Below, one piece after another: positions 22,690 through 32,119 of a stretch of DNA of 32,158 bases. The stretch is from a candidate division WS1 bacterium (GTDB lineage: Bacteria; Armatimonadota; Zipacnadia; Zipacnadales; Zipacnadaceae), in assembly GCA_012523355.1 (NCBI GenBank), contig JAAYIR010000117.1, forward strand, positions 1-32,158, given 5' to 3'. The position numbers and the translations under genes are program-made. Numbering within the stretch: position 1 is the first letter of the stretch; every line of letters starts with the position of its first letter. The notes under the pieces are model-generated. The model did no database searches. It saw only the letters and a program-made list of their open reading frames with translations, and was not told the DNA's origin.

Positions 22690-23556
22690 CTAGATCCAAG
22701 GCAAGTCTGCCAGTTCCTCTGCGCTGAAGACCGGGCCGTGGAGGCAGACCAGCTTGGGGCCGCAGTTGCAGCGGCCGCACTTGCCGAGCCCGCACTTCAT
22801 CTTGGCCTCCAGGCTGGCGAAGACCTGCTTGCGGGGCCAGCCGAGCTTGTCGAAGGTCTCCAGGACGAACTTTATCATGATGGGCGGGCCCACCGTGTAG
22901 GCGACCGCGTTCTCCGGCGAGGGGTTCAGCTCCTCCAGATACGAGGGCACGAAGCCCTCATGCCCCTCCCAAGTCTCGTCGCCTCGATCCACGGTCAGGC
23001 ACAGATCCAGGTCCTCGCATTGGCCCCATTCCAGCAGGCATTCCTTGTACACCAGGAGTTGCGGGCTGCGTGCACCATAAATGACCGTAACCTCGCCATA
23101 CTCGGCGCAGTGCTCTCGGAGGTAGTCAATCACCGAGCGCAGCGGCGGGAGGCCAATCCCTCCGCCGACCAGGAAGATGTTCTTCCCCCGGTGTTCCAGC
23201 ACGGGGAAGCCGTTGCCGAAGGGGCCGCGGAGGCCGATGGTTGCGCCGACCGAGAGTCCGTGCAGGGCAGTGGTGACCAGGCCGACCTTCTGCACGGAGA
23301 AGCGAATCGGCCGGCCGGGCCCGGCGACGGAGGCCACGCCGAAGGGCGCCTCACCGACGCCGAAGACGCTGACCTCAATGAACTGGCCAGGCATGTAGGT
23401 GAAGGTCTGGGCGACCTCGGGGTCCTGGAACTGGGCCTCAAAGGTCATGAGGCCGGGCCCCTCCTCGCGGACGGTGGTGAGGGTCGCGAGGTGGGGGAGG
23501 TAGGGATTGCCCATTGGGGCACAAGGTTGTACGCGTTCGTCAGAGATGGTGTTCAT
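22690..23556 (-). CDS. FAD/NAD(P)-binding reductase subunit with C-terminal 2Fe-2S site (HydG/AsrB-like)
   Basis: 288 residues. The ferredoxin-reductase-like layout is an FAD-binding barrel (MPGQFIEVSVFGVGEAPFG, then GLRGPFGNGFP), an NAD(P) Rossmann part (NIFLVGGGIGLPPLRSVI) and the C-terminal CGLGKCGRCNCGPKLVCLHGPVF, whose four Cys ligate a 2Fe-2S cluster as in dihydroorotate dehydrogenase PyrK. This architecture occurs in the gamma subunit of sulfhydrogenases, in AsrB and in related NAD(P)H-linked redox complexes. I place the start at 23556 (MNTISDE); the frame is open nine codons further upstream. Its usual partners, the two 4Fe-4S genes at 30472-32119 on the same strand, now lie about 7 kb away. 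Confidence 0.88.
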   Translation of the reverse strand: MNTISDERVQPCAPMGNPYLPHLATLTTVREEGPGLMTFEAQFQDPEVAQTFTYMPGQFIEVSVFGVGEAPFGVASVAGPGRPIRFSVQKVGLVTTALHGLSVGATIGLRGPFGNGFPVLEHRGKNIFLVGGGIGLPPLRSVIDYLREHCAEYGEVTVIYGARSPQLLVYKECLLEWGQCEDLDLCLTVDRGDETWEGHEGFVPSYLEELNPSPENAVAYTVGPPIMIKFVLETFDKLGWPRKQVFASLEAKMKCGLGKCGRCNCGPKLVCLHGPVFSAEELADLPWI

Positions 23557-23717
23557 GGAATTGCTCTCGTTATGATACAACATCTCGAGTATTCAAGTCG
23601 AGTCATGGCACACACATGTTCTTGCTGAGGCAGCAAGTTTCTGACAAACCTTGACAAAGGTGCCCGGAAGGTGTATGCACGTTCCGCGTTGGGTCGTTAC
23701 TTCGACGTCCGAAGGAT

Positions 23718-26144
23718 GTGAAGCTCATGTCCTGCGGTCACCCCGTCGTTGTAGCTGTGCTGTCTCTCTTGACCCTGGCTTGTCTTCCGGCCTTGGCAAT
23801 CACCGCCACCCCTTCGGTGACTCTGACCTCCGACCCCTACGGCGGCGACCCGTTGCCTGTCTGGCCCGCCGAGGAATTCACGCTGGTCGCCGAGGGCTCC
23901 TGCACGTATGACACCGCAACCCAGGATCGGATCACCTCCGGCGAGCTCATCGTCAGCGCGGAGTACCAGTGGGATGAGTTCCCGGCGGTCTGCGATACTT
24001 CTCCTGCCGAGAGCGACACTGAGACCTTCCACTACATGCTCCAGGACTGCGGCAAGAGCCAGCAGGTGTCGGTGACCTACGTCGTAACTCTCACCGAATC
24101 CTCTACTGAATATGCATGGAGCTTCTCCGCCACAGCCGCTCTGGACATCACCGCCCAGAAGCTGGTTGTCGAGATTATCCAACCCACGAGCGTGACCTTC
24201 GATGCCGAAGCGGGAGAGGAAATCACCTTCGAGGCCAAGGCGACCGTCCTGCCCGGCGAGGAAGAGGTGACCGAGGAATGTGACTGGGAATGGGACTTCG
24301 GGGACAACTCCAATCCGTCAACGGACAATCCGGCGGAGCATGGCTACGCGACGGGCGGCTTCTACGTTCTGTCGGTGACAGCGAGCTACGATGGGCAAGA
24401 AGGCTCGGCGGAGATGCGCGGGGCAATATCAGACCAGCCTCCCGCAGGGTGCAGCGCATCGCTCTACCTGAGCGATCCGGCCGGACAGAAGACGGCGAGT
24501 GATATCTCGATGGTGCATCTGGAACTCGGAGGCAATGTCAACGGGATGCGCACCTGGATGTACGACGTGCAGTACCGCCCGAAGAGAACGCCAGAGGTGC
24601 AGTGGGGGGGTGTTGGTTGGGCCTATGACGCCAATTGGAACGGCGTCTCCTTTCCGACAAGAGAATCCTGTGACATGATATGGAATACGCTGAACACGGG
24701 GTATTCCCAACACAATGAAGAATGGGAATGGCGTGCTATCTGCTTCCCCTGGTACTCGTGGCCGGACTATTATCAGGGTCCCAACCCGCCTGAGGGTTGC
24801 TTCGAAGTGAGGAAGGTCTTTCCGGTGAAGAACACCTCCGTTCACGGCGACGATCACGTCCTCAAGTTCGACCCGGATCATCACGGCGATTGTGAGCTAA
24901 CCTACAGCATAAGCCATGCCGACCCGGTGCCCGCCTGTGCATGGGCCTGGCCGCCACCGCAACCGCGCCTGGAGTGGGAGGTCTGGGGGGGCCAGTTCAT
25001 CGGCGGCCTGGGTGGCAATACCACCGACGTCTGGCAATACTACAAGGATGCCAGTATGCCGAAGGGGATATACACGTATCTGGTTACGGCCGAGCAGCGT
25101 GACAAGGACTTCTTCTACTCCTGGACCGGGCTGATGGAGGAGGGGATGTGCAAGGACACCGACAAAGCGCCGTGGGCCGGGGCGTCGGTGAGTCAGTTGC
25201 AGGTTGCCGTGATCAACGACGGGGTGGGCCCAGCTATTCAGGTGAGTGTCACCTATAGTGCTCCGGGCGATGCGGACCGGGTGAAGCTGTGTGTCTACAG
25301 TCCTGATCTCGTGTCGCGCAAGGCAGTATGGCTAGGGGCGGGTCACGACGGAACCGTACGGGGCGGGGACGGTGCGACACTAGTGTTCCCGATCAGGAGC
25401 GTGCCCTGGTCAGCGGCGGCGGGGACGTGGACCGCGGTGTTGTTTGGCAACGAGACTGCAGCCCAGGGACTAAGCCACCGGGACTACCTGCCCAAGCCCT
25501 ACGTGCAGGCGAAGGGGACTGCGGAGCTGTGGCCCAAGGCCTACGACGTCGTTGGCGACGAAACACTGGACCACCTGAGCGATGTCATGACAGCTCAGGG
25601 AACACCTGATGCCAACGGTTCCTGCTACGAGACCAACAGGGGTAGCGTAGGCGCGGGAGCATTCAGAACGGCTATGTCTTCATACACAATCGTGTATGTC
25701 AATAGCCATGCGAATGCTGGCATCATGGACATGGGGGGAAGTGGGGACGACCATAAGCTCTACGGCTCCGGCGGGACGGACGATTCGACACATGACAGGT
25801 ACTGGATCTGCAACGGCCGCTCAATGGGATCATGCTTGCTCGCATATTTCTCTGGATGCTTCACCGCTAACACAGGATTCCAGACCAACGGTAATCTTCT
25901 GGCCGCAGCAACGGATAGGGGTGTGAAGTGCGCGGTGGGGTTCACCGAGATGATCGGCGATCTCCCGTCGTGGTCGTTCGATGCCCAATGCTTCCGAGTG
26001 GCCTTGGGAGGCTACTCGCTGGGGACTGCCCTTGCCAATGCCAAGGTGTACATTCTGCAGCAGTACGGCAACTACTATGGGCTAGACAGCTACGCGTGCA
26101 CTGACGATGCGGTCATGCTGAGCCCGGTACGTTTTGTGGACTAG
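23718..26144 (+). CDS. Secreted PKD-domain protein with C-terminal caspase-fold (CHAT/gingipain-like) domain
   Basis: 808 residues with a signal peptide ending around ALA (residue 27; GTG 23718 or ATG 23727 as start). A PKD beta-sandwich lies at about 150-235 (WEWDFGDNSNPSTDNPAEHGY...GGFYVLSVTA). A middle region includes a His/Asp-rich segment (about 356-410) that is repeated elsewhere in the window. The last 200 residues have the pattern of a caspase-fold peptidase: a beta-strand followed by SHAN with H664, then LLAYFSGCFTANTG with C714. A CHAT-like tail follows (GVKCAVGFTE...SFDAQCFRVALGGYSLGTALANA). H664 and C714 are my reading of a catalytic dyad; activity is not shown. The related remnant at 28620-29257 keeps both residues with similar spacing. 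It is exported, and is followed by a PepSY-like gene. Confidence 0.72.
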   Translation: MKLMSCGHPVVVAVLSLLTLACLPALAITATPSVTLTSDPYGGDPLPVWPAEEFTLVAEGSCTYDTATQDRITSGELIVSAEYQWDEFPAVCDTSPAESDTETFHYMLQDCGKSQQVSVTYVVTLTESSTEYAWSFSATAALDITAQKLVVEIIQPTSVTFDAEAGEEITFEAKATVLPGEEEVTEECDWEWDFGDNSNPSTDNPAEHGYATGGFYVLSVTASYDGQEGSAEMRGAISDQPPAGCSASLYLSDPAGQKTASDISMVHLELGGNVNGMRTWMYDVQYRPKRTPEVQWGGVGWAYDANWNGVSFPTRESCDMIWNTLNTGYSQHNEEWEWRAICFPWYSWPDYYQGPNPPEGCFEVRKVFPVKNTSVHGDDHVLKFDPDHHGDCELTYSISHADPVPACAWAWPPPQPRLEWEVWGGQFIGGLGGNTTDVWQYYKDASMPKGIYTYLVTAEQRDKDFFYSWTGLMEEGMCKDTDKAPWAGASVSQLQVAVINDGVGPAIQVSVTYSAPGDADRVKLCVYSPDLVSRKAVWLGAGHDGTVRGGDGATLVFPIRSVPWSAAAGTWTAVLFGNETAAQGLSHRDYLPKPYVQAKGTAELWPKAYDVVGDETLDHLSDVMTAQGTPDANGSCYETNRGSVGAGAFRTAMSSYTIVYVNSHANAGIMDMGGSGDDHKLYGSGGTDDSTHDRYWICNGRSMGSCLLAYFSGCFTANTGFQTNGNLLAAATDRGVKCAVGFTEMIGDLPSWSFDAQCFRVALGGYSLGTALANAKVYILQQYGNYYGLDSYACTDDAVMLSPVRFVD
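24783..24937 (+). repeat. Internal segment A of the PKD gene, copied at 28.4 and 30.3 kb
   Basis: This piece of the 808-residue gene (residues about 356-407, beginning NPPEGCFEVRKV) recurs outside the gene: segment B (28391-28500) and segment C (30283-30440). A and C share an uninterrupted run of about 45 bp near their 3' ends apart from one mismatch, so the copies are recent. Confidence 0.85.
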
Positions 26145-26192
26145 CGTGTGCCAGGGCCATCCGGACTGGACATGCGGAAGAAAGGACTGGCC

Positions 26193-27053
26193 ATGATGCT
26201 CAAAGGAATAGTGATGGGGCTACTCGTAGGATTGTTGAGCGCTTCTTCGTGCCCGCTCTCGCAGTCGCAACAACCCACCTATGCCGCCACCAGCGAAGAG
26301 GTCAAGTCTGTCATCGCCCGCGATCTGGGCCTCGACATCGCGCGCCTGACCGTGAAGGACATCCCGCCCCTCCCGAACGGCAGCACCGATCAGTTGCCGC
26401 TATACGCGATTTCACTGCAGCAAGCGGAAAGCGAGAAGACGGAACGCGGAGTCGTCAGCCTGGATAGAGAGCAGTCCCACGTCCAGACGATAGCCTGGGA
26501 CCGCTATCCAGTTCATACCGCCGAGGACTGTGGTCTCACTCGGGCACAGGAGGTCGCAGAAGCCTACTGTCGTAAGCTGCTTGGGTCCTGGCCCCCCGGG
26601 ATGGACCTTCAGACGTCAAGGATGACGAGAAAAGGAGTCTACACCTTTCGCTGGGTCGAGGTTACTGATTCAGGGGCTGAGACCGGTAAGGCCGCTTCAT
26701 GCGACATATCTGCTGACGGGCTGGTTTTGACATGCGGAGTGACCGGGAGGGAAACCCCCCATTCGCAAGATGAGGTGCGTGTCACGAAGGAGGAGGCAAT
26801 CGGGATAGCAGAGGGCCACATCGCCTCCAAATTCGCGGAAACCGTCTTCTCCAACGTCAACGCACGTCTGATTCTGAACTATGATTTCAAACCCGACAAG
26901 GGCCCGGTCTGGATCGTGGATTTCGACTCGGCACCGAGCCAAGAGGCCCAGCCGCGTTTGCGCGTGCTCCGAATTGATGCCGTCACTGGAAGCAGACTGG
27001 ACGACAGCCAAGGTCCGAAGATGGAGCAAGACAAAGGCGTACCCGGCAACTAA
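26193..27053 (+). CDS. Exported PepSY-like protein 1
   Basis: 286 residues. An N-terminal hydrophobic segment (MMLKGIVMGLLVGLLSASSC) is followed by a secreted part. The C-terminal half shows a PepSY pattern: VTKEEAIGIAEGHIASKF (helix), then GPVWIVDFD and RVLRIDAVTGSRL (strands). PepSY domains were first described as peptidase-inhibitory propeptides of M4 metallopeptidases and are also free-standing. I choose ATG 26193, backed by AAAGGA about 6 nt upstream; ATG 26172 is an alternative. It lies close behind the PKD/caspase-fold gene, so an inhibitor or chaperone role towards that protease is a reasonable but untested idea. Confidence 0.6.
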   Translation: MMLKGIVMGLLVGLLSASSCPLSQSQQPTYAATSEEVKSVIARDLGLDIARLTVKDIPPLPNGSTDQLPLYAISLQQAESEKTERGVVSLDREQSHVQTIAWDRYPVHTAEDCGLTRAQEVAEAYCRKLLGSWPPGMDLQTSRMTRKGVYTFRWVEVTDSGAETGKAASCDISADGLVLTCGVTGRETPHSQDEVRVTKEEAIGIAEGHIASKFAETVFSNVNARLILNYDFKPDKGPVWIVDFDSAPSQEAQPRLRVLRIDAVTGSRLDDSQGPKMEQDKGVPGN

Positions 27054-27111
27054 CACCAGCTATCAAGCCGAGACCTTATTCGTATGGGCAGAGTCCGGCT
27101 TCCTGCCAAGC

Positions 27112-27162
27112 GGGGAATTCGGGGGACACATTAATCATGGGTAATCATGGGGACACCTTACT
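27112..27162. repeat. Short GGGGACAC-bearing repeat, possible mobile-element remnant
   Basis: GGGGGACACATTAATCATGG is followed by GGTAATCATGGGGACACC, so the GGGGACAC and TAATCATGG pieces occur twice within 40 bp. GGGGGACACC recurs at 30257-30266 just before segment C. Similar GGGGACAC-rich pieces are, to my knowledge, common near REP-associated (IS200-like) transposases; no such gene is present here. Confidence 0.4.
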
Positions 27163-27213
27163 TAACGCTCCCTGCCTCGGGGCCCCGGGCAAGGCTCCAA
27201 CCGACGGTGGCCA

Positions 27214-27858
27214 GTGGGGATTAGGCGCTACAGATGCGAGCGATCCGGGGTGGAAGGACAAGCGCCGTTCGTTGCGTATGTGACCATTGATACGGACCGT
27301 CTATATCCCCTAATAGTTGTTTTCCAGAGGCCGGCCGAGGAAAGCCAACGGGAGCTTGCACTTCCGCAATTCTGTGCCCTGGCGCAAACCTGGTTGGATG
27401 CTCACTATCCACAGTTGAGGCGGCTTCATGGCCTGACGATCTTGAGACCCCAGCGGGTACCTACTGGTCTCTTCGTGACTTGGGAGACGGAGGCGGGTGT
27501 GCCTTCCAGTGGAGTGCGCGCAGGCGTATTGCTGTCGCTGTTCTCGGGCGTGGTCCAGTCGTGTGGGGTCTATGTCCCGCCGGTCAATTGTATACGTGCA
27601 ACCCTCGAGCAATCGCAGGCGGAGCGAATAGTACTAGACGCGCTGGGGAATGAAGGGACGGACTTGTTGGCACTCGAGTCCCGGCTATTGGGGGCACACC
27701 CGGCCGCGCCTAATGAGGGACCGGTGTGGCTGGTCACGGTCCGGATCACGGACGCCGTAAACGCCGCACGGGAACGCCGAGACACGGTCATCGTTGATGC
27801 GGTTACCGGTCTCGTGCTCCGACCGACGCGGGATTATCGGGAGGCTCCTGATGAGTAG
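27214..27858 (+). CDS. PepSY-like protein 2, lacking a signal peptide
   Basis: 214 residues from a GTG at 27214. The C-terminal half has the same pattern as its neighbours (QSQAERIVLDALGNEG, then GPVWLVTVRITD and DTVIVDAVTGLVL). No signal peptide or membrane helix precedes it, and no good Shine-Dalgarno lies before the GTG; the sequence upstream is repeat-like. I suspect the 5' end was lost or replaced, so it could be a pseudogene. Its stop overlaps the next gene's start by 8 bp, so it remains in an operon arrangement. Confidence 0.5.
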   Translation: MGIRRYRCERSGVEGQAPFVAYVTIDTDRLYPLIVVFQRPAEESQRELALPQFCALAQTWLDAHYPQLRRLHGLTILRPQRVPTGLFVTWETEAGVPSSGVRAGVLLSLFSGVVQSCGVYVPPVNCIRATLEQSQAERIVLDALGNEGTDLLALESRLLGAHPAAPNEGPVWLVTVRITDAVNAARERRDTVIVDAVTGLVLRPTRDYREAPDE

Positions 27859-28372
27859 GCGTGCGTCACGCATCTTTCTCGCAGTGCTTCTGGCCTGTCC
27901 CATAATATGGATGGGCTGGTACTCATCCCAGACCTGGGCCCTGCGCCGCTGGGTGGCGCGGGGATTCAGAGTCCCCCCTCGTTGCGTGCAGCCTTCCTGG
28001 CTGCCCCCGGGAGTTACTGGCAAGCTGTTGGTAGATACTCCAGACGGGAGCCGTGTGGCTACGGTCTTCCTTGCTAGCGGAGGCCCAGGCGCTCCTCGAA
28101 TTGCGGGGATTGGGTTTGCTGAGACTTTCGCATTGCACCAGGCCGATGAATGCACCGAGCAGCTGGGGCCGGAGCAATGCGCAACTTCCTTGCTGGAGCA
28201 ATTGCTGGGCGTGCGACAGACGGAGATCGCATCTATCAAGACGACGCCGATGGCCTTGAAAGGACGAAAGGCGCTGGTCGTACATGTGAGCCTCTCGGGC
28301 CGCCACCGTTGGCTCTTCGGGAACTACCAAGTTTCCTTCGTTGATGGAAGACCTCTTGGCGTCTTCCGTTGA
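27851..28372 (+). CDS. Single-pass membrane protein of unknown function
   Basis: 173 residues. One N-terminal membrane helix (RIFLAVLLACPIIWMGWY, about 8-25) is followed by an exported domain with no recognisable family. Cys residues at four positions in the exported part (PPRCVQ, DECTEQ, EQCATS) could form disulfides. GGGAGG lies 6 nt before ATG 27851, which overlaps the stop of the PepSY-like gene, so the two are co-translated. The frame is open further upstream but without a plausible start. It may be a PepSY-array accessory protein; nothing in the sequence decides this. Confidence 0.55.
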   Translation: MSRRASRIFLAVLLACPIIWMGWYSSQTWALRRWVARGFRVPPRCVQPSWLPPGVTGKLLVDTPDGSRVATVFLASGGPGAPRIAGIGFAETFALHQADECTEQLGPEQCATSLLEQLLGVRQTEIASIKTTPMALKGRKALVVHVSLSGRHRWLFGNYQVSFVDGRPLGVFR

Positions 28373-28390
28373 GCGGGGCACGGAGTTCTC

Positions 28391-28500
28391 AACTAGATTC
28401 GACAACCCGCCCCTGGGTTGCTTCGAAGTAAGAAGGGCCTTTCGCGTCAAGAACACCGTGGTCCGCGGAGACGATCACATCCTGCCATTTGGATCCGGGC
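28391..28500 (+). pseudogene. Segment B: fragment of a PKD/caspase-fold gene
   Basis: Translated in its own frame, this reads NPPLGCFEVRRAF then DDHILPF, matching residues about 356-385 of the 808-residue gene at 23718 (about 75% nucleotide identity by eye). It has no start and is out of frame with the caspase-fold fragment that follows. It is the second copy of segment A. Confidence 0.75.
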
Positions 28501-28549
28501 CAGACCTCCTACCCGCACGCAACCAACATACAAGGGGGTAGGAAGCAGA

Positions 28550-28613
28550 TTATCCCGTTTCTGCGGGCTTCTTGCGCAGGGCGTTGAGGGTCTCCACGAT
28601 GTCGCTGGTGTAC
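28550..28613 (-). pseudogene. 3'-end relic of a 4Fe-4S subunit gene
   Basis: On the - strand, this encodes SDIVETLNALRKKPAETG and a stop codon (TAA at 28550-28552). The intact 4Fe-4S gene at 30472 ends DIVATLEDLRKKPIGSRDG. The 14-bp stretch GGCTTCTTGCGCAG is identical in both (28566-28579 and 30494-30507). No upstream part of the gene is present to the right of 28613. So this is a duplicated 3' end, with the other copy of the junction at 30440-30530. Confidence 0.65.
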
Positions 28614-28619
28614 AGAACC

Positions 28620-29257
28620 TGGGAGACTCTTTCAACGCAGTCACTTCCGACGCGGGAACAGAGCAGGGGCATGGGCAGGGCGAGGAGTCCGGGCTGGTAA
28701 CCTACCCGGCACCGCGTTACGATCCGGTGAATGTATGCCAGCCCGGGACGGCTGAGGGAATCTGGTCCGAGTTACAGGCCGGAACTTCATCTGTAGTCTT
28801 CTACATGGGACATGCGAGCGTGAACGGTCTTTGGGTTTCAGGTGACGGAACCCAGATATTGTTCGGGGGCTATCCGTTTGGGACGCCTGAGCCCAATACT
28901 CCGGACGCGTGCTACCTTGAGAACCTGTCGTCTGGCGCGCTCTCTCGGTGTGCGTTAGTGGTTTTCGGCGGGTGTCTGACTGGAGTGGTAGACTGCGGTG
29001 GCAGGAGCCTGCCCGGGTCGGCGATTGGCAAGGGCGCGGCAACCGCAGTCGGCTTTACCGGATCCCCAAGTGCCTATGTCACCTATTTTGGCGCCTTTGG
29101 GGAAAGCCTCATGAAATGGGGACATTACGTGGAGGTCGCTAATGTAGCTGGCAAGCAGGCCGTATTCGATGCGTATGGTCAGTATCATGGAACCGACACC
29201 TTGGTTATTTTCGGAAAGACTGGACAGGTCGTTCGACCGGCTCGCTTTGGGAGCTAA
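28620..29257 (+). pseudogene. Caspase-fold (CHAT/gingipain-like) domain remnant
   Basis: An open frame whose product matches the last 200 residues of the 808-residue PKD protein. It keeps the strand-plus-His (FYMGHASVNGLW, His codon 28811) and strand-plus-Cys (LVVFGGCLTG, Cys codon 28973), then TAVGFTGSPSAY and a C-terminal KWGHYVEVAN-like helix. Spacing His to Cys is 54 residues versus 50 in the intact gene. The frame continues leftward to about 28418, but that part reads across the antisense of the 4Fe-4S relic and has no start or ribosome-binding site. It is a truncated paralogue, not a complete gene. Confidence 0.65.
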
Positions 29258-29307
29258 GAGACGACTGCACGCTGCAAAGTCTGCTACAACAAGGGGGAGA
29301 ATTGTCT

Positions 29308-30219
29308 ATGATCACCTGGAGAGCGGCGCGCCGCTGGCGGTCGGCACTCATCACTATCGCGGTGCTCTTGGGCATCGCCCTATCATGGTGGATTAGAACC
29401 ATCGCACTGACGGAGGCTCTTGTGGGTCGGGAATTGCCCGCGCGCTTTCTAGGTCTGGACGAAGAAGATATTCTCCTGACACCCGTCGCGGAGAGGGATC
29501 CAGATCGCGAATCCTTCTTCGTCACCGTCCTCAAACGCCCGAACGAGACCTCGGAGTCTTTGACACCCTTTCTGTTCGGGGATACCGTTGAGACGACCAT
29601 CGATGTGCGCAGAGGTTACGTATGCTATGCGCGAGCTCATTCGAGCGAGTACCTGCAACCAGCAAAGGCCTCCCTTGGCGTGGATGAGGCACGGGATATC
29701 GCCGCCGTGTTCTTTCGGTCACATTACCCTCTGCAAGCTGCCGTGCCCAATATGGTTATCAAGTATGCCGGACCGGACGTTAACTCGGACGGCGAGGTTT
29801 TTGAACATGTCTTTGGTTGGTGGGGAAGGCAGGGCCAGGCCCTGACCGGCAATAGCTGCATCATAGCCGTCGGCGTGGGGGGTAGGATCATCTCTTATAC
29901 CGCCAGGGTCGCGCCGCAGCAAAGCCCGCCACAACCGAAGATCAGCAAAGAGGAGGCGCGCAAGATCGTCGAGCAAAAGACCACCCCGGTAGGTAGCACG
30001 AGGGTGCGTGTCGAAGTGCTCGAGCCCCAACTCACACTTAGCTCGCATTTGCACCCCTCGGGCGGGCCCGTGTGGAGCGTGCCTTTCAATACGTGGGCAC
30101 GCGCTCCCCAGGGCTACCCGTATGAAACGAAGGACGGTTGGGTGCAGCTGACAGCCGGGATTCTGGAGATTGACGGCCTGAGCGGCAAGGTCTTGCGGTC
30201 TCCAGAAGACACTCGGTAG
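29308..30219 (+). CDS. Exported PepSY-like protein 3
   Basis: 303 residues. An N-terminal membrane helix (ALITIAVLLGIALSWWI, about 13-29) precedes the exported part. The C-terminal half again shows the PepSY-like pattern: KEEARKIVEQK, GPVWSVPFN and ILEIDGLSGKVL. GGGGGAGA lies 7 nt before ATG 29308; a TTG at 29302 is in frame but less likely. It follows the caspase-fold remnant as PepSY-like protein 1 follows the intact PKD gene, so the pair [caspase-fold gene, PepSY gene] exists twice. Low similarity to copy 1 shows old divergence. Confidence 0.6.
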   Translation: MITWRAARRWRSALITIAVLLGIALSWWIRTIALTEALVGRELPARFLGLDEEDILLTPVAERDPDRESFFVTVLKRPNETSESLTPFLFGDTVETTIDVRRGYVCYARAHSSEYLQPAKASLGVDEARDIAAVFFRSHYPLQAAVPNMVIKYAGPDVNSDGEVFEHVFGWWGRQGQALTGNSCIIAVGVGGRIISYTARVAPQQSPPQPKISKEEARKIVEQKTTPVGSTRVRVEVLEPQLTLSSHLHPSGGPVWSVPFNTWARAPQGYPYETKDGWVQLTAGILEIDGLSGKVLRSPEDTR

Positions 30220-30282
30220 CCCTAGGATCGGGAAGCGGGGGGGAATCGGGTAGTCCGGGGGACACCATACCCGATCAAAGGC

Positions 30283-30440
30283 CCTAATCCGCCTGAGGGT
30301 TGCCTCGAAGTGCGGTGGGTCTGTCCCGCCAATCATACGGTGGTGGACGGCGACGAGCACGTGCTCAAGTTAGACCCGGACAATCACGGTGATTGTGAGC
30401 TAACCTACAGCATAAGCCCTGCCGACCCGGTGCCCGCCCT
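30283..30440 (+). pseudogene. Segment C: second extra copy of the PKD-gene segment
   Basis: Translated, it reads NPPEGCLEVRWV then GDEHVLKLDPDNHGDCELTYSI, equivalent to residues about 356-407 of the 808-residue gene. The last 45 bp match segment A with one mismatch. It starts after a GGGGGACACC piece and stops 31 bp before the stop codon of the intact 4Fe-4S gene. Confidence 0.8.
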
Positions 30441-30471
30441 AGGCACGCGAACATGTCACCGCGCGGTCACA

Positions 30472-31575
30472 CTATCCATCTCTCGAGCCGATCGGCTTCT
30501 TGCGCAGATCCTCCAGGGTGGCGACGATGTCCGTGTGCCCGGCGCAGCCACGGAGACAGCGCCCGCAGCCCACACAACTGATCGGCCCCCCGCGCTCCAC
30601 CGAGTACCAGAACTTGTGGCTCAGGCGGTTGCGCTGGCGCATCCACTGCTGCGACTTCGGGTCGTGGCCGCTGGCCTCGCGGGAGAAATCTGCGAATTGG
30701 CAGGTGTCCCAACAGCGGTAGCGCAGGCCGCGCCCGCTGATGGCGTCGTCGCGTACGTCAAAGCAGGTGCAAGTGGGGCAGAGGAAGGTGCACACCCCGC
30801 AGCCTACGCACGCCTCGGTGTGCGCTTTCCAGAACTCTTCATCGTGATACGCCGCCCGGACGGCCTCGGTGAGGCCCTCGACGTCAATCTTGCGCGTCTG
30901 GGCGGCGGCAGTCTGTGCGGCGATCTCCGCCTTGCGCTCCAGGTCGGCCTCGGAGGCCTCTTTCCATCCCGTTAGGACAGGCGTCTCGCCCGTCTCTTCC
31001 GATTCTGACAGACGAGACGTCTGTCCCACCGTTGCCACGAGTAGCGCCTTGCCCTTGTCGGTCAGGGGCTCGACCAGGTAATCTCCATTGAGCTGGGTCA
31101 GGAGGACATCCGCGCCGGGGGCGGTGAGGAGCACGTCATTGAGGCAGGCGCAGAAGCACTCGGGCAGGGCGGAGGTGCAGTTGACGGCAATGATCGTGCC
31201 CGCGTCGCGGCGGGCCTGGTAGTAGGGATCGGGTACATCGGACAGGTATACCGTGTCCGCGATGGCCAGCGCGTAGGCGTCGCAAGGGCGCACGCCGAAG
31301 ACCGCGAAGGGCTCGGAGACCGGAGGCGTCGGGACCACGCCGGCCCGGTCACCGCGATAGCCATAGCGCAGGAGCACCTCGGAGAGCGGGGTGAAGAGCT
31401 TCTTCAGCGGCATATCGGGGACGCCGGGCTCGAGGGCAATCTGCTCGGGGTCTTCGACCTCGCGCCAGTCCACGACACCGTCGGCATCCGGCAGCGGCGC
31501 CACGAGACGGCGATTCTGCTTGACCCGGAGGAGCCAAGGGTTCAGCTGGTCTTGCGACAAAAGGTAAGAGGCCAT
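30472..31575 (-). CDS. 4Fe-4S dicluster electron-transfer subunit (HydB/AsrA-like)
   Basis: 367 residues from ATG 31575 (an upstream TTG at 31596 would overlap the preceding gene). The N-terminal half (to about 190) includes GVRPCDAYALAIAD and NCTSALPECFCACLND, the Cys-rich N-terminal region of this family. The C-terminal half has two clusters of cysteines: CVGCGVCTFLCPTCTC and CVGCGRCLRGC, which ligate two 4Fe-4S centres, with RYRCWDTCQFADFS between them. It is homologous to hydrogenase beta subunits and to anaerobic sulfite reductase subunit A; the partner catalytic subunit is not in the window. An in-frame palindromic repeat (30975-31026) adds about 17 residues (GQTSRLSESEETGETPV) in a variable part. 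The two 4Fe-4S genes are 4 bp apart. Confidence 0.88.
   Translation of the reverse strand: MASYLLSQDQLNPWLLRVKQNRRLVAPLPDADGVVDWREVEDPEQIALEPGVPDMPLKKLFTPLSEVLLRYGYRGDRAGVVPTPPVSEPFAVFGVRPCDAYALAIADTVYLSDVPDPYYQARRDAGTIIAVNCTSALPECFCACLNDVLLTAPGADVLLTQLNGDYLVEPLTDKGKALLVATVGQTSRLSESEETGETPVLTGWKEASEADLERKAEIAAQTAAAQTRKIDVEGLTEAVRAAYHDEEFWKAHTEACVGCGVCTFLCPTCTCFDVRDDAISGRGLRYRCWDTCQFADFSREASGHDPKSQQWMRQRNRLSHKFWYSVERGGPISCVGCGRCLRGCAGHTDIVATLEDLRKKPIGSRDG
30975..31026. repeat. In-frame palindromic repeat inside the 4Fe-4S gene
   Basis: GGACAGGCGTCTCGCCCGTC (30975-30994) pairs with GACAGACGAGACGTCTGTCC (31007-31026): 17 of 20 bases match, and the three mismatches become G-U pairs in RNA. Read on the - strand it encodes GQTSRLSESEETGETPVL within the protein, between LLVATV and TGWKEAS, without breaking the frame. 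It looks like a mobile palindromic element that inserted in frame. Confidence 0.85.
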
Positions 31576-31579
31576 GGTA

Positions 31580-32119
31580 TCAGTGATGCTCCGCAATGTC
31601 CTTATCCTGGCTCTCGAAGACGGAGAGCGGGGGCTGGGTCTCGGGGTCCAGACCCGCGACTTGCGCGAAAGCCTCCTGCGCCTCCTTCGCCATTTTCGCG
31701 TTCAGCAGGCGCAGGGGCAGGTTCATCGGGCAGGCGCGGTCGCAGGCCCCGCACTGCACGCAGCGCCCGGCCAGGTGCATGGCCCGGCCCAGCAGGAACA
31801 TCTCGTTCTCGTCTGCGCCGACCGTGCGCGGTAGCCATTCCGGCTGGTTCGTTTGCGCGAAGCAGGTCGTGCAGAAGCACAGCGGGCAGTTCTTCACGCA
31901 GGCATAGCAACGGATACAGCGCTCGAAAGCCCGGCGGAAATACTCGCGGCGCTCCTCAGAGGTCATGGCCTCGAGGCGGGCGAGCTCGGCGTCTTCGCCC
32001 TCAGGGTTGCGAGAGGGGACCTCCGGGCCCAGGAGCTCGTCGAAAGTCACGGGATTCGGGTGCTGGCAGTGGAGGCAGGTGTCCTCCAGCAGGTCGGCCA
32101 CGGGAAGGTGCCGCTCCAT
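31580..32119 (-). CDS. 4Fe-4S ferredoxin-type subunit (possibly 5' truncated)
   Basis: 179 residues from ATG 32119. Cysteine clusters: CLHC near residue 15, CIRCYACVKNCPLCFCTTC near 68, and CVQCGACDRACP near 119. These are the ligands of two 4Fe-4S centres as in electron-transfer subunits paired with HydB/AsrA-like proteins. Relatives that I recall have an additional N-terminal domain of about 130 residues before the first CLxC; it is absent here. The frame stays open through the palindromic repeat to the right edge of the window, so the gene may continue, or may have been cut by the repeat. AGGAG in the repeat lies about 7 nt before the ATG. It is followed by the second 4Fe-4S gene after 4 bp. 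Confidence 0.72.
   Translation of the reverse strand: MERHLPVADLLEDTCLHCQHPNPVTFDELLGPEVPSRNPEGEDAELARLEAMTSEERREYFRRAFERCIRCYACVKNCPLCFCTTCFAQTNQPEWLPRTVGADENEMFLLGRAMHLAGRCVQCGACDRACPMNLPLRLLNAKMAKEAQEAFAQVAGLDPETQPPLSVFESQDKDIAEHH

Follow-up and report, generated by a model that had tools for sequence, protein, structure and literature searches.

Within the window—the whole contig, 32,158 bases long, of a metagenome-assembled Armatimonadota genome—a gene for an exported protein with a predicted caspase-like peptidase domain is followed by a gene for an exported PepSY protein. Because across the phylum the PepSY gene almost always comes directly after the peptidase gene and diverges together with it, we conclude that the two probably represent an enzyme and a protein dedicated to inhibiting it or helping it to fold. 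A more specific reading, which we consider rather likely, is of an enzyme–regulator pair: the enzyme would be an exported cysteine peptidase of clan CD and the regulator its own double-PepSY protein, acting in trans both to fold and to restrain it. The first pair comprises the following features:

23718–26144, forward strand: exported PKD protein of 808 amino acids, with a signal peptide (residues ~1–27), a PKD domain (163–225), an Ig/FlgD-like middle region (~245–600) and a predicted clan-CD caspase-fold domain (~600–808)
25707–25709, forward strand: codon for H664, the predicted catalytic His of the 808-residue protein, invariant in 33/33 aligned homologues
25857–25859, forward strand: codon for C714, the predicted catalytic Cys of the 808-residue protein, invariant in 34/34 aligned homologues
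26193–27053, forward strand: pepA, the exported double-PepSY partner of the 808-residue protein; likely ATG at 26193 after AGGA, 48 nt past the caspase stop codon, in a frame open from 26145

The 808-residue open reading frame of the first-pass annotation was borne out, with a signal peptide and a PKD domain, and codon reading placed H664 and C714 where they had been reported. When the window's own proteins were searched against Pfam and NCBIfam, the results comprised only the PKD domain (Pfam PKD_4, E = 1e-6, residues 163–225), sub-threshold PepSY and Peptidase_C25 matches and a spurious FAAL match. Taken singly, the caspase domain of the 808-residue protein matched no Pfam family, and a phmmer search of the PDB with the single domain found no match, so a family profile was needed for structural comparison.

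When 46 genomes of the class were searched, homologues of the caspase-like domain emerged at 24–31% identity, and in a first alignment of twelve sequences the invariant columns were the His, the Cys and one Gly only. One hit from that first search (L020) was dropped as a sugar-phosphate-isomerase-like chance match from which the motif was absent. Among 36 aligned domains from the phylum, at 16–28% identity, just four columns were invariant—H664, C714, G735 and P803—with the counts for His and Cys taking in only those aligned domains that reach the column in question. Both residues lie behind a hydrophobic strand, His before Cys, as in clan CD, and the retention of both by homologues had been anticipated. 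This His/Cys pattern is not attributable to chance, because it supplies two of only four invariant columns at such low identity and because the gene order recurs throughout the phylum.

Searched against the PDB, a profile built from 32 domains of the family matched SAVED-CHAT 8tl0 (E = 2.7e-7), with the H664 and C714 columns falling on its GHG and NAC motifs, as well as the CHAT domain of DdvA (E = 0.0072). Pfam CHAT (PF12770) gave weak matches at E ≤ 0.1 to eight of the 32 members (best 1.3e-6) and Peptidase_C25 (PF01364) gave weak matches to five (best 3.2e-6). An AlphaFold model of the caspase domain, drawn from six alignment rows, was poor (pLDDT 40); in a Foldseek search with this model, CHAT proteins led (E = 2.5e-4, but with low TM), followed lower down by gingipain R, separase and Craspase. 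These matches are in keeping with the earlier suggestion of a fold related to caspases, and assignment of the C-terminal domain to clan CD (CHAT/gingipain-like) is well supported by profile similarity and motif conservation.

Downstream of pepA, the window contains four more genes or gene fragments that bear on the pairing:

27166–27858, forward strand: PepSY-like gene, probably 5′-truncated, with no signal sequence (E = 1.4e-63)
27794–28372, forward strand: small open reading frame with an N-terminal hydrophobic segment and no family match; its membership of the module is uncertain
28595–29257, forward strand: paralogous caspase-fold domain, 5′-truncated (E = 6e-60), with its His at 28811–28813 and its Cys at 28973–28975
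29308–30219, forward strand: pepB, the intact exported PepSY partner of the second caspase domain, with GGGGGAG ahead of its ATG (E = 5e-87)

As first described, each caspase-fold gene is followed by a gene for an exported PepSY-like protein (pepA and pepB). The further PepSY-like gene reported between them is indeed present, but is probably truncated, since its open frame lacks an N-terminal signal sequence. Against Pfam PF03413, the window's PepSY proteins scored below the 24-bit cut-off (E = 0.012–0.026), a cut-off too insensitive for counting partners; at E ≤ 0.1, 18 of 36 partners were matched (best 2.2e-9). A profile of 36 partners matched the pro-elastase propeptide (E = 6e-5), YpeB (1.4e-4) and the propeptide of MCP-02, a vibriolysin (6e-4), in the PDB. 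A model of the partner from AlphaFold reached a pLDDT of 74 and, when compared with the PDB using Foldseek, retrieved YpeB first (E = 4.3e-8), then YycI and MCP-02. Similarity in fold and in profile thus identifies the downstream partners as predicted double-PepSY proteins, with YpeB and the propeptides of M4 proteases as relatives; an N-terminal hydrophobic segment is found in 38/39 of them.

Under the mechanism we propose, peptidase and PepSY protein would both be exported, from adjacent genes, and binding of the PepSY protein to the peptidase domain would take place periplasmically or outside the cell. Acting in trans, like an M4 propeptide, the PepSY protein would aid folding of the enzyme and would then keep the peptidase inactive until displaced or degraded. 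Direct binding is suggested by the combination of export of both proteins, adjacency of their genes and co-divergence; catalytic activity, binding, direction of regulation and substrate are all features that we infer.

A possible, if unlikely, alternative is that the PepSY protein serves mainly as a dedicated foldase or export chaperone for making or exporting the peptidase, rather than as an inhibitor: M4 propeptides assist folding, and the double-PepSY proteins resemble them. Stable SleB requires YpeB (PMC6660665) and a chaperone role has been proposed for staphostatin (PMC3462683). However, the present data fit either role, and propeptides commonly perform both. Against the proposed inhibition it counts that a PepSY fold alone need not make an inhibitor: the part of YpeB that inhibited SleB most strongly in vitro was its N-terminal domain, not its PepSY domains (PMC6660665).

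The case for a dedicated pair, whichever role predominates, draws on gene order. Class-wide, a PepSY match was found directly downstream on the same strand at most caspase loci. Across the phylum, counting loci with room on the contig and scanning all open reading frames, the PepSY gene came next on the same strand at 42/46 caspase loci of this type, usually less than 60 nt away or overlapping; at the remaining four, a PepSY-like neighbour was visible by eye only at L096 and L105, with none clear at L109 and L106. As controls, seven caspase-fold proteins of other architecture (one TPR-CHAT protein and proteins of 900–1,658 amino acids) had no PepSY neighbour (0/7). The check proposed in the first-pass annotation, for PepSY genes beside such domains in other genomes, gave a strongly positive result. 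Because the partner profiles had been built in part from caspase neighbours, we also ran a profile made from the window's three PepSY proteins alone; outside this genome it recovered 11 genes lying next to a caspase gene, where 0.0035 would be expected. Such neighbours turn up in many of the phylum's families, well in excess of chance, and adjacent same-strand genes across lineages are what is looked for in a protease with a co-encoded inhibitor.

The converse is incomplete, in that PepSY paralogues without a caspase neighbour exist, many of them at contig ends. One genome (G027) contains at least seven PepSY-partner matches (L121–L126), several at contig ends, although the search revealed no member of the caspase family in it. 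At two other loci (L138 and L140), where a caspase gene is absent, PepSY proteins with a hydrophobic anchor at the C-terminus (PWALYGGIVLLCAIALGLFLLRRR) are encoded in tandem arrays. At L105 (2067–4145, reverse strand), the PepSY-like partner downstream of the caspase gene is apparently fused to a beta-propeller-like part. A scan of contigs returned four loci only, all from Armatimonadota, a result which is no evidence of absence elsewhere and cannot show that the pair is missing from other phyla, because it used a single short peptide pattern. A tblastn search in plasmids produced no match, and neither did PADLOC defence models.

The two partners also diverge together. Distance matrices for caspase domains and PepSY proteins were correlated across 28 pairs (Mantel r = 0.63, reached by 0/5000 shuffles). 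When partners were swapped only among paralogues of one genome, the observed correlation was reached in 47/5000; co-divergence therefore goes beyond species relatedness, since swapping within genomes removes that component. For 16 of the 28 pairs, the caspase domain and the PepSY partner had their best matches at one and the same locus, where about one such pair was expected.

The second pair in the window sits with the first in an island that can be laid out as follows:

23584–30471: island of 6.9 kb carrying the cluster, between sulfhydrogenase-like gamma (22690–23583, reverse strand) and beta (30472–31596, reverse strand)
28403–28498, forward strand: second copy of a middle-region piece, with 79% nucleotide identity over 81 nt to 24782–24862, not in frame with the paralogue that follows
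28566–28603, reverse strand: 38-nt copy (79%), inside the island, of the 3′ end of the sulfhydrogenase-beta-like gene (30494–30531)
30280–30438, forward strand: third copy of the middle-region piece, with 83% nucleotide identity to 24777–24935

A sulfhydrogenase-like operon (window 22690–23583 and 30472–32119, both reverse strand) is split here by the caspase/PepSY island; in both relatives from the same genus (G044:C95 and G045:C74), beta abuts gamma, the sequence running directly from one into the other, and the operon is intact. The second caspase-fold domain does retain a His and a Cys 54 residues apart, as noted at the outset, but it is not the decayed copy, or remnant, for which it was first taken: it is a divergent 5′-truncated paralogue, only about 25% identical to the first domain, nearer another subfamily (L080, L017 and L021) and in a different frame from the preceding 'GCFEVR' fragment. 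Its match to Peptidase_C25 (PF01364) fell below the cut-off (E = 0.038), and an NCBIfam FAAL match was rejected as spurious (E = 0.0017, score 16.8 versus a cut-off of 1100). The history of 'two generations' proposed for the locus is likewise wrong or unproven, and the middle-region piece of 80–160 nt is present in three copies, not two, all those in the genome being at this locus (24777–24935, 28403–28498 and 30280–30438). A middle-region fragment followed by the sulfhydrogenase-beta 3′ end occurs twice (28403–28603 and 30280–30531), an arrangement that suggests an old segmental duplication inside the island; the 38-nt copy of the beta 3′ end hints at duplication during island formation.

Tandem pair arrays occur at L015, L019 and L090; at L090 (257–4943), three caspase-fold/PepSY pairs lie consecutively, with caspase genes that are short or broken. 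An ambitious generalisation, which we regard as doubtful, would see here a polymorphic system spanning the phylum, made up of exported proteases of CHAT type and exported PepSY immunity or inhibitor proteins, multiplying as tandem pairs in insertable islands, with PepSY proteins as a general class of trans-acting caspase-fold inhibitors. More doubtful still is an effector/immunity role, in which the exported peptidase would attack other cells while the PepSY protein protected its producer. The tandem pairs (three in a row at L090, others at L015, L019 and in the window), the co-divergence of cognate pairs beyond species relatedness, the retention of the partner gene by truncated copies and the variable genomic position of the island would all fit such a role. 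However, neither delivery machinery nor the architecture of a toxin carrier was apparent, the PKD/Ig proteins having a plain signal peptide; none of the PADLOC models matches; and tandem expansion can occur, too, in nutritional proteases that are secreted and have inhibitors.

It is very improbable that the caspase-fold domain is a pseudo-enzyme acting as a binding or structural module; its peptidase activity is a prediction and its model is poor (pLDDT 40), but hardly any residues other than the His and Cys are invariant in this family, whose identity is otherwise ~20%. Equally hard to credit is that unrelated causes put the two genes side by side, the PepSY protein being a generic exported protein brought alongside by chance or in a shared mobile block: such a view could point to the insertion of the cluster as an island in this genome and to the occurrence of orphan PepSY genes, but chance neighbourhood is rejected by the 11 adjacent genes found against 0.0035 expected and by co-divergence that persists within sets of paralogues from a single genome.

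Many exported proteins of bacteria carry PepSY domains, whose function is little known beyond YpeB and the M4 propeptides. Their recurrent association with a caspase-fold domain, with joint divergence, supplies a concrete PepSY partner and a testable role, that of a trans-acting propeptide, in a class of proteases for which no use of PepSY is known, and adds to the CHAT/gingipain group an exported, PKD-linked branch that expands as tandem enzyme–partner pairs. Consistent with the novelty claimed for the combination, no paper featured both 'CHAT domain' and 'PepSY' in the literature searched, for the most part papers outside subscription journals; within the same limits, papers mentioning 'PepSY' alongside 'gingipain' or 'caspase' gave no sign of such a protein pair in their titles and abstracts or in one passage of text. 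That a protease may have its inhibitor encoded next door is a known principle; the combination of caspase fold and PepSY appears to be new.

Among characterised systems, CHAT peptidases (SAVED-CHAT 8tl0, the TPR-CHAT of Craspase, DdvA) give the best PDB profile match and share the His/Cys motifs, their spacing and the helix–strand pattern. However, these serve as regulators inside the cell or at the membrane and carry TPR, SAVED or similar parts as fusions, whereas the Armatimonadota family is exported, PKD/Ig-linked and PepSY-paired; a TPR-CHAT gene of the same phylum (L112), unlike the exported family, has no PepSY neighbour. Gingipains (C25) are exported clan-CD cysteine peptidases with Ig-like parts, as is predicted for this family, but their Ig-like domain lies behind the catalytic domain, whereas in the 808-residue protein the predicted catalytic domain is C-terminal, with the PKD domain and Ig-like region before it, and the family's PepSY partner is a separate gene.

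SleB–YpeB of Bacillus spores resembles the pair in gene order, an exported enzyme being followed by a PepSY protein within one operon, and YpeB, the partner's best fold match, stabilises and may inhibit exported SleB (PMC6660665, PMC13393411). Unlike the putative peptidase, SleB is peptidoglycan-lytic, spore-specific and from a different phylum. In the staphopain/staphostatin, SpeB/Spi and Bacteroides C10 systems, a secreted cysteine protease is co-transcribed with its own inhibitor gene, with several paralogous pairs (PMC3462683); those enzymes have a papain fold and small, unrelated inhibitors thought to be cytoplasmic, in contrast to the caspase fold and exported PepSY partners of the Armatimonadota pair. 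M4 propeptides (pro-elastase, vibriolysin MCP-02) share with the partner a PepSY domain related in sequence profile and fold, but they are a covalent part of a metalloprotease, whereas the Armatimonadota partner is encoded by a separate gene beside a cysteine-peptidase-like protein.
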